Positions 52,454-64,000 of a stretch of DNA of 64,000 nucleotides are shown in pieces. A program made the translations under genes and the position numbers. The notes beneath the pieces were generated by a model. It saw only the letters and a program-made list of their open reading frames with translations, searched no databases and had not been told where the DNA came from. Position 1 is the first letter of the stretch, and each line of letters opens with the position of its first letter. This DNA is from Methylobacteriaceae bacterium (lineage in GTDB: Bacteria; Pseudomonadota; Alphaproteobacteria; Rhizobiales; Beijerinckiaceae). The DNA lies in the NCBI GenBank assembly GCA_947444195.1, contig CANEZL010000025.1:1-64000 (forward strand), written 5' to 3'.

Positions 52454-52530
52454 GGCGGGGTAGCTCAGCTGGTTAGAGCAGAGGAATCATAATCCTTGTG
52501 TCGGGGGTTCAAATCCCTCCCTCGCTACCA
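52454..52530 (+). tRNA. tRNA-Met (anticodon CAU)
   Basis: Cloverleaf folds by hand: GGCGGGG acceptor, GCTC..GAGC D stem, GAGGA-ATCATAA-TCCTT anticodon arm, GGGGG-TTCAAAT-CCCTC T arm, encoded CCA. Confidence 0.95.
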
Positions 52531-55171: not shown

Positions 55172-55567
55172 TCAGGCCGCCTCGCGCTGCAGGAGCCCAT
55201 GGCTCTCCAGGACGGCGAGCACCCCGTCGGCGAGCTAGCGGTCGTCGAGCCGATCAGCTCGCCCGCGGGCGAGGACCTCCCGCACCAGGACGGCGGCCCC
55301 CGGCGGGGTGAGCGCCTGCCCGAACAGCGGGGTCTCGGCCGCCGTGCGCTCGGCCTCGGGCAACTCGGCGAGCGCGGCCGCGACCGAGTCGTAGACGATG
55401 ACCGCCGGGCGCATGAGGTTCGTCACCCCGACCGCCGCGAATGCGGCGAGCGCGTCGGGCTCCTCGCACCGCGCGTCGACGACCCGGCGCCGGAACGTCA
55501 CCTGGGCCGGTCGCGGGATCCCGTAGAACGCCCACGCCGCCCTGTGCTCCTCGGTCGTGCTCGCCAT
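55172..55567 (-). CDS. hypothetical protein interrupted near its C-terminus by an in-frame TAG at 55235-55237
   Basis: ORF 55235..55567 continues in frame past the TAG as LADGVLAVLESHGLLQREAA and stops at 55172, 2 bp before the next candidate gene. Confidence 0.4.
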
Positions 55568-55829
55568 CGTCCCCCCTCCGCGGTCTCTCGGGCGGAGGAT
55601 ACCACCGCGAACGATTCGCGACGGGACGGAGCCGCCCCACGGGGCCCAGGGATATCTTCACCACGGCCGGCGGATCCCCTTGCCGCGGGAGTCCCCGCCT
55701 GCCACGTTGGCTGCCTCACCGAAGGGATCGCCCCGTGAACGCTCGCACCTTGAAACGGATAGCCCGCACCGCCTGAGCCACCGAGCTCGGCGCCCGCCTG
55801 CGCGTGCCCCCGTTTCCAGCGAGCCTCCG

Positions 55830-57437
55830 ATGATCGACGACGTCCAGCGCCGCGCCCGGCGTGCCGCCCGTATTGCCACGTACCGCGACTCCGAGGACCG
55901 CCACCGGCGCGCCCTCGCGATCCCCCCGACGAGGACGGCCACGCTCGACGAGCTCCTCGTGGGGGCTCAGCCGCTCGACGGCAGCCCGATCGAGGACGCG
56001 CGCTACTGGGCCCGGGAGGTCCTGCACACCCCCGCCGCTCCGAGCTTCCCCGACGAACTGCACATCGCCATCTCCAGGTTCGGCCTGGAGCCGACGGCGG
56101 CCCGCGCCGTCGCGGTCGAGCGGGCCGCGCTCGCGCAGGTCCAGGCGGTGTTCCCCGACCTGACGGCCGAGGATTCGTTCGGGGACGTCGCCGACCGGGC
56201 GACGATCTACGCCGCGCTGCTCGGCGATCCCGAGGCGGCGGGGCGCGCCGTCGCGATCGTCCACGACTACCTCTTCGGGCACCTCCACACCGGCCGGCAC
56301 GACCCGGTCCCGCTGCGCGAGGTCTTCGTCACGCTCCTGCACGTCTGCTCGCTGTGCAGCCGGGACCTGCCGGCGCAGCCCGTCGCCAACGACCTGCAGG
56401 CGGACTGGCGAATGGGGCGGGGGTCGGCGCGGCAACTGCTGGAGGCAATCGCGGACGTCGCCGTCCCGCCGGAGGAGCTCCCGGCACCGGCCGCCCCGGT
56501 CGCGCCGCTGGCCCCGGCGCCTACCGCGGGCGCGGCCGGCGAGGGCGATCTCGACCTCGACCTTGGCGGCATCCTGGGGCGTGCCTACGCCCCGAGCCTC
56601 GTCGTGATCCCCGAGCCCACCGGTAAGAAGAAGGTACCTGGACAGGCCGCCGCCATCGTCGGTCGTGCCCTGCCGCTGCGCCCGATGCCGGACCTTGAGG
56701 TGCTCGGCCGCCACCTGGTCGAGCGCAGCCCGTGGGCCGCGCCGGGGATCGCCCGCCTGATCGGCCTACTCCAAGGACGGGCGCACGCGGGGTTCCCGAA
56801 CATCGTCTTCGTCGGCCCGCCGGGGGCCGGCAAGTCGGAGCTCGCCCGGGACTTCGTCGACGCCCTCGGTGTGCCCTCGCTCGTCTATGCCTGCGCAGGG
56901 GCGCACGACGGCTCGATCGGGGGGACTTCGAAGCAGTGGTCATCGGCCCGTCCAGCTGTGTGGACGCAGATTCCGATCGAGCACGAGAGCGCGAACGGCG
57001 TCCTCATCCTCGACGAGCTGGACAAGGCGGCTCCCGGCGGTGGGCACAATGGATCCGTCCGGGAGGCCCTCCTCGGCATCGCGGAACCTTCCCAGCGCAA
57101 GGCCTTCTGGGACGTCGGGCTTGAAACCAAGTGCGATCTCAGCGGCATCAGCCTCCTGGCGACGGCGAACTCGGTCGAGCCGATGCGCGGCCCGCTGCTC
57201 GACAGGTTCGTGAGGGTCGAGATCGGCGCCCCGCGCCGGCAGGACCTGCCCGTCGTCATCCGCACCGTCCTCGAAGGGATGCGGGCGGAGGTGGCTGACG
57301 CGCGGTGGATCCCCGACCTTGACGGCGTGGAGTTTGAGGCCCTGCGCCGGGCCTGGAAGGGCGGCTCGCTCCGGCCCCTCCGGCGCGCGATCGAGCGGAT
57401 CATCGGTGCCCGCGCCGACCGCCGGTTCTCGCACTGA
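55830..57437 (+). CDS. AAA family ATPase
   Basis: NIVFVGPPGAGKSELARDFVDAL Walker A; NGVLILDELDKAAPGG Walker B; SLLATANSVEPMRGPLLDRFVRVEI. Confidence 0.85.
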   Translation: MIDDVQRRARRAARIATYRDSEDRHRRALAIPPTRTATLDELLVGAQPLDGSPIEDARYWAREVLHTPAAPSFPDELHIAISRFGLEPTAARAVAVERAALAQVQAVFPDLTAEDSFGDVADRATIYAALLGDPEAAGRAVAIVHDYLFGHLHTGRHDPVPLREVFVTLLHVCSLCSRDLPAQPVANDLQADWRMGRGSARQLLEAIADVAVPPEELPAPAAPVAPLAPAPTAGAAGEGDLDLDLGGILGRAYAPSLVVIPEPTGKKKVPGQAAAIVGRALPLRPMPDLEVLGRHLVERSPWAAPGIARLIGLLQGRAHAGFPNIVFVGPPGAGKSELARDFVDALGVPSLVYACAGAHDGSIGGTSKQWSSARPAVWTQIPIEHESANGVLILDELDKAAPGGGHNGSVREALLGIAEPSQRKAFWDVGLETKCDLSGISLLATANSVEPMRGPLLDRFVRVEIGAPRRQDLPVVIRTVLEGMRAEVADARWIPDLDGVEFEALRRAWKGGSLRPLRRAIERIIGARADRRFSH

Positions 57438-58690: not shown

Positions 58691-59524
58691 ATGCCGACGG
58701 CCCTCATCATGTCCGACCTGCACGTTGACGCGAGTCCCTGGCAGCTGCCGCCGGGCCCTCGCGTCGAGGTGGCAATCGTGGCCGGCGACGTCGCGGATGG
58801 GCTGTGCCGCAGGGCTCTCCCATGGCTCGCGGAGCATGTCGTCCCGCGCGCCCGGCATGTCGTCTACATCCCGGGCAACCATGATTTTTACGGGGGCCGG
58901 CTGCCGGACGAGCTCGCCCGGGCCAGGGACTCGGCGATCGCCGCCGGGATCCGCCTGCTCGATTGCGGCCAGGTCCTTCACGTCGACGGCGTCCGCATCG
59001 TCGGCGCGACGCTTTGGACCGATTACGCGGTCGGCGAGCCGCGCTGGTCGCGGCCATGGGCGCTGCGCGACTGCGGCGACCGTGAGTTAGGGATGCGCGA
59101 TCACAGGAGGATCCAGACGAGGGACCGGCTCGGCCACCCCGCGCCCTTCCGCCCGCCGGCCGCGCTGTCGCTGCACGTAGACCACCGCGATCGCGTCGCG
59201 CGGGTCCTGGCCGAGGCGCACGGCGGGCCGACCGTCGTAGTCACGCACCATGCTCCCCATCCCCGCTCGCTGCCGAGCGGCGCCCCGGTCGGTCCGACCT
59301 GCGCCGCGTACGCGAGCGACCTCTCGGCCCTGATGGAGAACCCCGGCGCGCCCGATCTCTGGATCCACGGGCACGTGCATGTCAGCCGGGATTACACCGT
59401 CGGGCGGACGCGTGTGGTGGCGAACCCGAGGGGCCATGACACCAGCTTCACGCGCAGGGACGGCACGTGGGCTGACGAGCGCGAAAATCCCGCCTTCGAT
59501 CCGTTCCTCATCCTGGAGCTCTGA
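58691..59524 (+). CDS. metallophosphoesterase
   Basis: LIMSDLHVDASPW, VAIVAGDVADG, YIPGNHDFYGG, VVTHHAPHPRSL, WIHGHVHVSRDYTVGRTRVVANPRGH. Confidence 0.93.
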   Translation: MPTALIMSDLHVDASPWQLPPGPRVEVAIVAGDVADGLCRRALPWLAEHVVPRARHVVYIPGNHDFYGGRLPDELARARDSAIAAGIRLLDCGQVLHVDGVRIVGATLWTDYAVGEPRWSRPWALRDCGDRELGMRDHRRIQTRDRLGHPAPFRPPAALSLHVDHRDRVARVLAEAHGGPTVVVTHHAPHPRSLPSGAPVGPTCAAYASDLSALMENPGAPDLWIHGHVHVSRDYTVGRTRVVANPRGHDTSFTRRDGTWADERENPAFDPFLILEL

Positions 59525-60490: not shown

Positions 60491-60697
60491 GATCCCGCCA
60501 TAGTCGTGTCGATCGAGCTTCCCTCAGCCTCGACTTGATGGCTCGAATCGGTTGCGGTTGTATCCTCATCGCCGACCAGCCGATCTGCCGTCCCGAGGCG
60601 CGACGCCGCCCGCAGACCGGTCCAGAGGATTTTCGGGCGGGCGCCCGATCGAGGAAGAGTAGGGGAGCCGTCGGCACCCCCAACCGAGCGGGGGGAT

Positions 60698-61399
60698 ATG
60701 GCAGACGCCCAGTATCACCCGGCGCACGTCGACCGTGCGCTGGCGAGGATCGATGCGATCGACGACGACGACGGGCTGCTCGCGGCCGTCAGCGTCATCC
60801 GCGGTCCGGACGCCGTCCCCCCCGAGGTCCACGTTAGGCTACTTCGGCGATGCCGCGTCGAAGCGAACCGCAGGTTGGAGGGCGCCGTGCTGCGCGCCCT
60901 CGTCAAAAGGGTCGACCGCTGGGTGACCCGCAAGTTCGCCGGCTTGTCACCGGCCGATCAGGAGGAGATGTCCCAGGAGCTCCTCGCTCACGTCGTCAAG
61001 GCGGTCGCCAGGACGACAGCCATCGACTGGTGGGAGTGCCGGTTCTTCTTCAACCTGCGCAAAGCCGCCGCGAGCCAATACGAGAAGACGTACGACGAAG
61101 GCCTGAGGTCGGCAACCGCCGACATCGGCGACCAAGCCGAGGAGCTGCACGACGAAGGCGCCCTCGCGAAAGAACTCGTCGAGGACGCCGTGCGCAATGC
61201 CCGCCTAGTCGAGGTCCTCGATCCGGATGAGGTCGCCCTCGTCCACCCACTATTTCTTTCCACCCTTCCGATATCCAGCAAGAAGGCCAAGCTCGACCTG
61301 GTGCGATACCTCGGCATCCCGGAAGGGACCCTTGCCGAGAAGAAGGCAACCATCGTCAAGAAGCTAAAGGCCGCGCTGGAACAGGAGTCGCTGTCATGA
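60698..61399 (+). CDS. RNA polymerase sigma-70-like protein
   Basis: RWVTRKFAGLSPADQEEMSQELLAHVVKAVARTTAIDWWECRFFFNLRKAA (region-2-like) and a C-terminal HTH-like LDLVRYLGIPEGTLAEKKATIVKKLKAALEQ. Confidence 0.55.
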   Translation: MADAQYHPAHVDRALARIDAIDDDDGLLAAVSVIRGPDAVPPEVHVRLLRRCRVEANRRLEGAVLRALVKRVDRWVTRKFAGLSPADQEEMSQELLAHVVKAVARTTAIDWWECRFFFNLRKAAASQYEKTYDEGLRSATADIGDQAEELHDEGALAKELVEDAVRNARLVEVLDPDEVALVHPLFLSTLPISSKKAKLDLVRYLGIPEGTLAEKKATIVKKLKAALEQESLS

Positions 61400-61983
61400 A
61401 CACCGACAAGAACGATCCACGCGCCATGGCCGACCGCATCGTCGAGGCCGGAGCCGATCCGGATGAGATCGCCGCCGCCCTCACACAGTTAGGCGATCAA
61501 GCGGGTGTCTTCCTCGGCCGTCTCGCCGCTCACTCCGCTCTTCGCGAAGGCGACGGGGATGCGTCCGATGTCGCCGATCGCGACGCCGAGGCTTCGGCAT
61601 CGCTTCTGGCTCACGTGCAGTCGGTCTACGAGGCTGAGAAGGCCGACACGGCGGCCCTGGCGCGCCCAAAGGACCTCTCGAAGCTGCCGACCTGGGTCGC
61701 GGCGAAGGCGGCATTCGGTAACGACGTCACCTTCGTCATAAAGCTCGCCGGCCGCCACGTGACGCCGCCGACTGGCCGGTTCGTCCGGTACGCCGCCGAT
61801 GCGCTCGGTGTGGCGATCACCCAGGTCAGGCAGCACTTCGCCGACGGCATGCCGCGCGGCGTCGCCGGCGCCGAATTCAAGTCATCGGGTAAGCCGGGGA
61901 CGGGCGGCGTCGAGGACTTCGCGGAGGCCGTCCGGGCCGCGAGCATCCCCGACGAGCTTCGCTCGCGCTGGCTGGCGGAGTAG
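61396..61983 (+). CDS. hypothetical protein in sigma-like / ImmA-UvrD operon
   Basis: 195 aa MNTDKNDPRAMADRIVEAGADPDEIAAALTQLGDQAGVFLGRLAA...LPTWVAAKAAFGNDVTFVIKLAGRHVTPPTGRFVRYAADALGV; ATGA overlap with upstream gene. Confidence 0.7.
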   Translation: MNTDKNDPRAMADRIVEAGADPDEIAAALTQLGDQAGVFLGRLAAHSALREGDGDASDVADRDAEASASLLAHVQSVYEAEKADTAALARPKDLSKLPTWVAAKAAFGNDVTFVIKLAGRHVTPPTGRFVRYAADALGVAITQVRQHFADGMPRGVAGAEFKSSGKPGTGGVEDFAEAVRAASIPDELRSRWLAE

Positions 61984-61989
61984 CACCCG

Positions 61990-64000
61990 ATGGACGCGTT
62001 TGCCCTCGCCCGTCTCCAGGCCAGGCGCAAGCGCGCCCTCCTGCCGGCCGGCATCATGTCCGGCAACGCAGCGGTGGAATGGGCCTTCACCGATGCAGGC
62101 ATCGACATCCACGAGCAGAAGATTGACGGCACGATCCTGGACGGATGCGACGCCAAGCTCTTCCGCGCGGCCTCGGCCGTCTACGTCCGAGACGACGTTC
62201 CGAAGCCGGAGCAGGCGCTCCACCTCGCGCACGAGCTCGGGCACCTCGACCTGCACAAGCCGCATGAGGAGTGCGAGCTCCACAGGACCGACCTGCGACC
62301 GGCCGGCTCGCGCGCCATCTCGCGCGTGGAGGCCTACGGGCCCCGCGAGCGCCGGGAGCTGATGGCGAACGTCTTCGGGCGCGAGTACCTGCTGCCGCGC
62401 GACCTCGCGCGGCAGCTCTTCGTCGATGACCGCCTTTCCGCGCCTGCGATCGCTACGCGGTTGGGCCTTCCGCTCGGGATGGTCCGCCAGCAGCTCTTCG
62501 ACGCGCTGCTGCAGGCCGACGTGGCTCCGCCCAAGGAGAAGGGCCCACGGAAGCTCCAGACGCTCGATCCCAGCCAACAGCGGGCGGTCGATTACAAAGG
62601 GCGGGCCCTCCTGGTCGAGGCTGGCCCCGGATCGGGCAAGACAAAGACGCTCGTCGCCCGAATCAACCGGCTCCTCGAAACGGAGCATCCCTCCCGCATC
62701 CTGGCGCTGACCTTCTCCAACAAGGCCGCGGCCGAGCTGTCTTCCCGGCTCATGGAGGATAAGGGTGACGAGGCGGTAGAAGTCTGGACCGGCACCTTCC
62801 ACGCCTTCGGCCTGGAGGTGATGCGACGGCACTACGAGCTGTTCGGGCTCGGGCCCAAGATCCGCCTGCTCTCGCCGTCCCAGGCCGTCGAGTTGCTTGA
62901 GGAGCGGCTGCCGCTTCTCGGCCTTGAGCACTTCCACGATCTCAGGGATCCCGCCGCCAAGCTGAAGGAACTCCTGCGGCCGGTCTGGCGGGCCAAGGAT
63001 GAGCTCGTCGGGCCCGGGGAGTTCCGCCGGATGGCGACGGAGAACCTGGACCGCGCCGAAGCCGAGTACGCCGCGCTGCGAAAGCAGACCAAGGTGGCGT
63101 TCAAGCCGGTCGAGACCGCGCAGAAGACCATGGAGGCGGCCGCCGTCTACGACGAGTACGAGAAGCTGCTGCGGGGCAACGGCCTGGTCGACTTCGCCGA
63201 CCTCGTCATGCTGCCCACCCTGATCATGGCCCGCGAGCCGAAGGTGCTCCGGGAGCTGCGCGACCAACATCGCGAGATCCTGGTCGATGAATTCCAGGAC
63301 GTGAACCGGGCCAGCGCGGAGATGGTCAAGCTCCTCTGGGGTGAGGAGAACCGCGTCTGGGTCGTGGGCGATGCCCGCCAGAGCATCTACCGGTTCCGAG
63401 GCGCTTCGCCGCTGAACATGGAGCGCTTCGAGCGCGACTTTCCCGCCGGCGAGGGCGAAGTCGAACGCATCCCACTCGCGTTCAACTACCGCTCAACCGA
63501 CCACATAACCGGCCTGTGCCGGACCTTCGCCGCAGCGACGGACGCGATCCGCGGGCGGGAAGGGTTCACCCCGGCCGGGCTTCCCTACGACGCGGAAGCT
63601 GACCGAGAGGACGAGGGAAGCGCGACGAAGCTTCTGGTCGGGCAGGATGACGACTGCGAGGCCGACCTGCTCGAACGGGAGATCCGCCGTCTGCGCGACG
63701 ACGGGGTGCCGTACGGCCGGCAGACCGTCCTCGCCAGGACAAACACTCGCCTGGACACCCTGGCCGCCCGCCTCGCCCGGCATGGCATCCCCGTGCTGCA
63801 CCTCGGCAGCTTCTTCGAGCGATCGGAGGTCCGCGACGTCCTGTCGATCCTCGCCATCGTCGCCGAGACGAACGGTGCCGCGCTCTCGCGCGTGGCGGCA
63901 TTCCGGGGCATCGACGTCGAGGGGCCCGACGTCGCCATCGCGGTCGAGCATGCTCGGCGTCGCGGGCGCGCCCTCGCCGAGGTCCTTCCCGACGCCCTCT
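61990..64000 (+). CDS. ImmA/IrrE metallopeptidase domain fused to UvrD-like SF1 helicase (open at window end)
   Basis: Read directly: 670 aa open to the edge. HLAHELGHLDLH zinc-peptidase motif with ERRELMANVFGREYLLPR, then LVEAGPGSGKTKTL, ILVDEFQDVNRAS, VWVVGDARQSIYRFRGAS, NYRS. Confidence 0.9.
   Translation, partial: MDAFALARLQARRKRALLPAGIMSGNAAVEWAFTDAGIDIHEQKIDGTILDGCDAKLFRAASAVYVRDDVPKPEQALHLAHELGHLDLHKPHEECELHRTDLRPAGSRAISRVEAYGPRERRELMANVFGREYLLPRDLARQLFVDDRLSAPAIATRLGLPLGMVRQQLFDALLQADVAPPKEKGPRKLQTLDPSQQRAVDYKGRALLVEAGPGSGKTKTLVARINRLLETEHPSRILALTFSNKAAAELSSRLMEDKGDEAVEVWTGTFHAFGLEVMRRHYELFGLGPKIRLLSPSQAVELLEERLPLLGLEHFHDLRDPAAKLKELLRPVWRAKDELVGPGEFRRMATENLDRAEAEYAALRKQTKVAFKPVETAQKTMEAAAVYDEYEKLLRGNGLVDFADLVMLPTLIMAREPKVLRELRDQHREILVDEFQDVNRASAEMVKLLWGEENRVWVVGDARQSIYRFRGASPLNMERFERDFPAGEGEVERIPLAFNYRSTDHITGLCRTFAAATDAIRGREGFTPAGLPYDAEADREDEGSATKLLVGQDDDCEADLLEREIRRLRDDGVPYGRQTVLARTNTRLDTLAARLARHGIPVLHLGSFFERSEVRDVLSILAIVAETNGAALSRVAAFRGIDVEGPDVAIAVEHARRRGRALAEVLPDAL

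Follow-up and report, generated by a model that had tools for sequence, protein, structure and literature searches.

A Conserved Three-Gene Front End with an M78 Protease–Helicase Fusion Is a Candidate Expression Switch for Bacterial Ubiquitin-Like Conjugation Systems

Organization of the Locus

The window, that is, the whole stretch of 64,000 nt that was analyzed, ends within a trio of genes that encode a predicted sigma factor (Orf1), a small protein with a weak helix-turn-helix (HTH) (Orf2), and a fusion of a zinc peptidase with a helicase (table 1). The original prediction described this gene order together with the ATGA overlap between orf1 and orf2 and the start of the third gene 6 bp past the orf2 stop, and all of these features and their coordinates were confirmed. 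The 4-bp overlap is common to most of the relative loci described below. The window truncates the locus, and the contig runs 4.5 kb further. Extension past 64000 takes the helicase to its C terminus and then leads, on the same contig and strand, to a complete BilABCD ubiquitin-like conjugation system that the original prediction had not seen: four genes spanning 65515–68327 match the PADLOC models for BilA, BilB, BilC, and BilD in that order (positions beyond the window are L005 coordinates plus 60000). Because BilABCD lies directly downstream, we view the whole as a seven-gene locus with the trio as its front end. BilABCD (for bacterial ISG15-like) is a known anti-phage system and, as described, comprises four genes; here, these are preceded by three more genes and by two shared promoter-like elements. 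Genes for an AAA ATPase and a calcineurin-like phosphoesterase precede the trio and share its orientation, and a pattern scan of the own genome found no sigma-type element ahead of either of them.

Table 1. Features of the trio locus and its surroundings (contig positions; the window covers 1–64000)
Feature	Position	Strand	Description
tRNA-Met	52454–52530
AAA ATPase gene	55557–57437	+	Upstream of the trio
Calcineurin-like phosphoesterase gene	58691–59524	+	Upstream of the trio
Predicted sigma-dependent promoter of the trio	60625–60649	+	GAGGATTTT-N12-CGAT; 48 bp before the orf1 ATG
orf1	60698–61399	+	233 aa; divergent ECF-type sigma factor (predicted)
orf2	61396–61983	+	195 aa; N-terminal helices, weak XRE-like HTH at about residues 95–150, conserved C-terminal tail
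M78–UvrD fusion gene	61990–65412 (61990–64000 inside the window)	+	1140 aa; M78 (ImmA/IrrE) zinc peptidase fused to SF1A UvrD-like helicase
HELGH	62230–62244
Walker A	62623–62643
Motif II	63280–63306
RQSIYRFRG	63376–63402
Twin element	65447–65471 (L005:5447–5471), outside the window	+	43 bp before the bilA ATG
bilA	65515–66030	+	PADLOC BilA, 5e-49
bilB	66027–66482	+	PADLOC BilB, 2e-55
bilC	66469–66960	+	PADLOC BilC, 2e-60
bilD	66957–68327	+	PADLOC BilD, 4e-149

By sequence, the downstream genes are classified as Bil, with one defining residue, the E2 cysteine, missing in the clade to which this locus belongs. The BilB of the locus (L005:6027–6482) and four close relatives read LYFPLDR versus LYLPCDR, with Leu and Gln at the CEHH-motif positions where other trio-linked BilB proteins retain Cys and Glu; the conjugation chemistry of this clade may differ or may use another residue. 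The JAB metal-site motif HxHP...S..D is present (ADIHTHPAGAGQSRSD). The missing cysteine would fit a decayed remnant, as would a contig terminus that lies about 200 bp past bilD and resembles, by eye, the end of an IS element. We consider decay very improbable, however, given that none of the seven reading frames is interrupted, that the M78, helicase, and JAB sites remain intact, and that the change in BilB is common to the whole clade.

The Protease–Helicase Fusion Protein

The reading of the third gene as an M78 protease joined to a UvrD helicase is borne out by matches to the Pfam models Peptidase_M78 (residues 60–169, e value 2e-8), UvrD-helicase (residues 192–485, e value 7e-64), and UvrD_C, and HELGH and the helicase motifs were located in the sequence (table 1). 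A search of the PDB with the M78 domain alone gave no match. Among 85 full-length proteins of the family, the HExxH residues H81, E82, and H85 and the third ligand E123 are invariant in all 85, as are all of the helicase motif residues that were checked. The nuclease domain that the original prediction suspected at the C terminus is present as a PD-(D/E)XK-like domain, but it is dead: the motif III acid is absent from 85 of 85 proteins, which mostly read RRV[RK]TG at this point, the lysine is lost in most, and the first Asp of the triad, found in 63 of the 85, is Pro in the window protein. No D...(D/E)xK triad of the RecB/AddB/Cas4 type is found in the family. A quartet of cysteines (C915, C1122, C1125, and C1131) is intact, with C915 invariant and the other three present in 83 of 85 proteins, the remaining two being gapped. 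From the invariant sites it follows that the protease and the helicase are under selection, and from the loss of the catalytic residues that the nuclease is not. An active nuclease effector is ruled out because the catalytic acid is lost in every relative; by analogy with AddB-like proteins, the C-terminal domain probably has a structural role in binding DNA.

The fusion protein resembles AddAB/RecBCD in its SF1A helicase, in the PD-(D/E)XK-like region at its C terminus, and in cysteines patterned as in AddB/Cas4, and it differs from them in its N-terminal M78 domain and in the lost nuclease residues. GajB models match its UvrD-like core at 1e-54, and the original prediction had pointed to Gabija for this helicase type. 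That link does not hold, because the likeness is the shared and generic SF1 helicase core, no GajA-like OLD/TOPRIM nuclease is present among the scanned genes between 55557 and 68327, and Gabija has neither an M78 fusion nor a sigma gene; we therefore ruled out Gabija.

Orf1 and Orf2

The sigma-like character originally assigned to Orf1 is upheld at the level of the family. The Orf1 family profile matches region 4 of ECF sigma factor structures (best e value 8e-9), and 39 of 55 Orf1 relatives match the Pfam model Sigma70_r4_2; the window Orf1 itself has no Pfam match. An AlphaFold model of Orf1 (pLDDT 89) is similar to full sigma factors and to sigma region 2, the latter with TMt of 0.62–0.67, but all Foldseek E-values are nonsignificant. 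These features mark Orf1, as a family, as a predicted divergent ECF-type sigma factor that combines a region 4 HTH with a region 2 fold.

Orf2 (AlphaFold model with pLDDT 83) matches no PADLOC or Pfam model and has no significant match to CapH. A lambda-repressor-like (XRE-like) HTH is likely but weak, judging from weak matches in some relatives and from the fold search, in which the neighbors of Orf2 include CapH-N and DdrO, both M78 substrates, at nonsignificant E-values. None of the fold searches with Orf1 and Orf2 gave an E-value below 0.001, and we treat them as supporting hints only. We propose that Orf2 is an anti-sigma factor or repressor and a substrate of the protease, the anti-sigma role being a guess.

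Conservation of the Trio and Exchange of Its Back End

We scanned 85,462 species genomes using an 84-residue helicase segment as the query and analyzed the best 80 loci of at least 495 relatives. These 80 loci come from at least five phyla (Pseudomonadota, Acidobacteriota, Chloroflexota, Planctomycetota, and Verrucomicrobiota), and neighbor profiles show that orf2 is kept in 78 of them and the sigma-like gene in 69 of 73. The original prediction depended on the three genes being conserved together, and they are found in the same order in dozens of unrelated genomes, far beyond chance. Among those of the best 80 loci that have at least 3.5 kb of sequence beyond the helicase, 60 of 66 carry an E1/ubiquitin-like cassette (25 of the Bil type and 35 of the multi-ubiquitin type), nearly always on the same strand as the trio and a short gap away. 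Because the search query consisted of the helicase only and not of its neighbors, this linkage was not built into the search. In a FastTree phylogeny of the helicase, Bil and multi-ubiquitin back ends must have replaced one another at least four times, which is the pattern that an exchangeable front end would produce.

In the same genus we identified 11 full-length relatives, eight with ubiquitin-like (Ubl) genes downstream and three with the trio alone. The cassettes consist either of multi-ubiquitin, a CEHH protein, JAB, and E1 or of a multi-ubiquitin/E2 fusion and a JAB/E1 fusion. The three others (L025, L026, and L027) have orf2, the M78–UvrD gene, and a small sigma-like ORF (L026:6791–7354) with no ubiquitin-like genes nearby, and UvrD paralogs without M78 in the same genus (L036–L038) have no Ubl neighbors. 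Of six additional alphaproteobacterial genomes in which Bil was matched, two likewise carry the trio in this order. When Bil operons were sampled independently of the trio, the trio was present in the window's operon and in G821 and G791 and absent from G348, G193, G331, and G499.

Further trios with no Ubl cassette in reach are found at L090, L091, L093, L104, and L105. In place of Ubl genes, a small helical protein (about 110 aa) follows the trio in L090, L081, and L104, and a PolB-type 3'-5' exonuclease (L093:13002–13787) follows it in L093; these two proteins are possible alternative outputs of Ubl-less trios. In 14 trio loci (L140:14445–15044 and 13 others), the E1 genes of the multi-ubiquitin cassette are followed by a gene for a DUF6527 protein, an accessory of that cassette type.

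These data bear on whether the trio could be a working part of the immune machine rather than its controller. In that case, the helicase–protease would recognize phage DNA and would directly license or direct conjugation, for instance through cleavage of an inhibitor or a Ubl target, and the sigma factor would only tune levels. The strict linkage to Ubl genes across phyla and the full conservation of both catalytic sites fit equally well with such a role. However, the same front end is swapped between Bil and multi-ubiquitin cassettes, Bil operons without the trio and trios without a Ubl cassette exist, and defense by BilABCD has reportedly been shown with the four genes alone. We therefore regard a direct part in conjugation as unlikely.

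A Promoter-Like Element Shared by the Trio and the Cassette

The predicted promoter of the trio has a twin ahead of bilA (table 1). Exactly two matches to this element, at 60625 and 65447, exist in the own genome (4.83 Mb), where 0.02–0.06 are expected from base composition; both sites were known beforehand, and the information in this count is that there is no third copy. Among the relatives, a bipartite, -35/-10-like element lies between the helicase and the Ubl genes and reads GAGG(A/T)TTTT-N12-CGAT in the window's clade and TT(T/A)CCGG-N16-CGAT in other clades. It was found in 55 of 68 helicase–Ubl gaps, compared with 2.4 expected from shuffles and with 3.7% of control tiles, a count that is descriptive only because the patterns, which are regular expressions widened by eye, were read from those same gaps. 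The half-site spacing, the copies upstream of orf1, and the own-genome count are stronger evidence because they are independent of the gap-derived pattern. Half-sites peak sharply at a spacing of 16 nt (41 of the pairs) on the sense strand, with almost none on the opposite strand, and the element is present upstream of orf1 in many Bil-type loci (28/75 vs. 3.9 expected). The element was not found in three loci with divergent Ubl genes, nor in several multi-ubiquitin loci of the same genus. Because the broad motif TTWCCGG-N16-CGAT is unspecific in other hosts, with 3–28 matches per genome, genome-wide uniqueness is claimed for the own-genome variant only.

It is likely that Orf1 drives bilA, with the element being read, as we infer, by Orf1. 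The element might instead be the operator of Orf2 acting as an HTH repressor, with the M78 protease relieving repression exactly as in CapH+CapP; the weak XRE-like HTH of Orf2 and the presence of CapH-N and DdrO among its top fold neighbors would suit such an arrangement. We find an operator doubtful, because the element lacks palindromic symmetry, shows strand specificity, and has a fixed 16-nt spacing like that of -35/-10 boxes, and because a sigma-like gene to read it is nearly always present.

The distribution of the element also bears on the possibility that the trio is an independent defense or DNA-repair system that merely shares defense islands with Ubl systems. The loci with the trio alone (L025–L027 and the five listed above) would be in line with this, as would neighbors that include recombinases and, beside L116, L120, L121, L125, L127, and L136, the known defense system IetAS (AAA ATPase plus subtilase). 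Against it, the Ubl cassette follows the trio at high frequency, mostly on the same strand and at a short distance, and the element is conserved in the gap and missing where no Ubl gene follows (0 of 12 loci without a collinear downstream Ubl gene). Given the collinearity and the gap motif, a plain defense-island neighborhood was judged unlikely, and independence of the two systems appears improbable.

In 38 other loci (including L084:8430 and L117:3944), a third copy of the element lies within the coding sequence of orf1, about 200 bp before orf2. Codon usage at this copy is nearly invariant, with Arg encoded by CGG in 37 of 39 cases (25% background), Ala by GCG in 38 of 38 (34% background), and T as the preceding base in 38 of 39, which indicates selection at the DNA level; the copy is perhaps an internal promoter for orf2 and the helicase gene. 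In L103 (2678–7600) and L113 (2649–7579), the same element is also found ahead of a gene pair that is located shortly before the trio and encodes an SbcD/YhaO-like phosphoesterase and a YhaN/SbcC-like ATPase; six loci belonging to different clades have this pair.

Comparison with Known Controllers of Immune Operons

CapP is an M78 protease that is activated by ssDNA and cleaves the HTH repressor CapH, and CapH+CapP controls CBASS, Bub, and other operons (PMC13373217). Bub operons are often under the control of CapW, CapH+CapP, or CapK+CapS, the last being an ssDNA-activated kinase and a STAS repressor that form a DNA-damage controller ahead of Bub, Bil, and other operons (PMC13373217). Like CapH+CapP, the trio heads an immune operon with an M78 protease and an adjacent small, weakly HTH-like protein, and the fusion protein has the intact HExxH and third ligand Glu that characterize CapP as an M78 protease. 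Unlike CapP, which is a stand-alone protein with repressor-only control, the protease here is part of a larger fusion protein that also contains an SF1 helicase and a dead nuclease domain anchored by cysteines, and a sigma gene is added to the operon. Because of the fusion, the sigma gene, and the unmatched Orf2, we do not classify the trio as CapH+CapP, although by analogy it plausibly works like this pair. The trio shares with CapK+CapS the position of a DNA-damage controller before Bub/Bil operons, but the proteins are unrelated and the trio has no kinase or STAS domain. PprI/IrrE of Deinococcus is likewise an ssDNA-activated M78 protease that cleaves an HTH repressor, DdrO (PMC10904395), and differs from the trio in having no helicase, no sigma factor, and a genome-wide regulon. 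The trio would be the helicase-coupled, sigma-based counterpart of the M78 controllers CapP and PprI.

The original suggestion of a defense or DNA-damage regulatory module is thus well supported, given that the trio is joined to BilABCD and that M78 proteases are known DNA-damage-triggered controllers. As a whole, the earlier interpretation stands in part: the regulatory module was rightly anticipated, the parallel to Gabija was not, and the C-terminal nuclease exists only as a dead domain.

A Model for Switching on Ubiquitin-Like Immunity

A regulatory role of the trio is likely, and we consider it fairly probable that the trio serves as a dedicated switch for expression of the ubiquitin-like anti-phage conjugation system. 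Orf1 would be an ECF-type sigma factor with a very small regulon comprising the promoters of its own operon and of the ubiquitin-like cassette, and it would be kept inactive by Orf2, which would act as an anti-sigma factor or co-repressor. The helicase–protease would engage damaged or invading DNA through its helicase core and its Cys-anchored dead nuclease domain, which would activate the M78 peptidase to cleave Orf2. The freed sigma factor would then switch on the trio and BilABCD in a burst of positive feedback. DNA is the probable trigger, and chances are about even that Orf2 is both the inhibitor of Orf1 and the M78 substrate; the proposed restraint by Orf2, DNA sensing, and Orf2 cleavage draw on the analogy with CapH+CapP, which adjoins another Bil operon, where a capH+capP pair (PADLOC 3e-12 and 3e-33) lies divergently next to bilA and the trio is absent (G499). 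Tentatively, such operons may represent a further class of DNA-triggered controllers of ubiquitin-like immunity, spread over at least five phyla with repeated swaps between Bil and multi-ubiquitin cassettes, in which a helicase-coupled M78 protease would destroy an anti-sigma factor and thereby release a two-promoter sigma factor.

We found no description of the trio in the open-licence PMC literature, and prior mention in Bub/Bil papers beyond that scope is possible; neither a helicase nor a sigma factor is mentioned by Iyer 2006 (PMC1779556). The module offers a concrete hypothesis for what triggers bacterial ubiquitin-like pathways, together with a promoter sequence amenable to reporter assays. 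It would also be, to our knowledge, an unusual instance of immunity controlled by a dedicated sigma factor. The M78–UvrD fusion provides a single signature gene for finding hundreds of such operons, including types that are not yet known to be immune systems.
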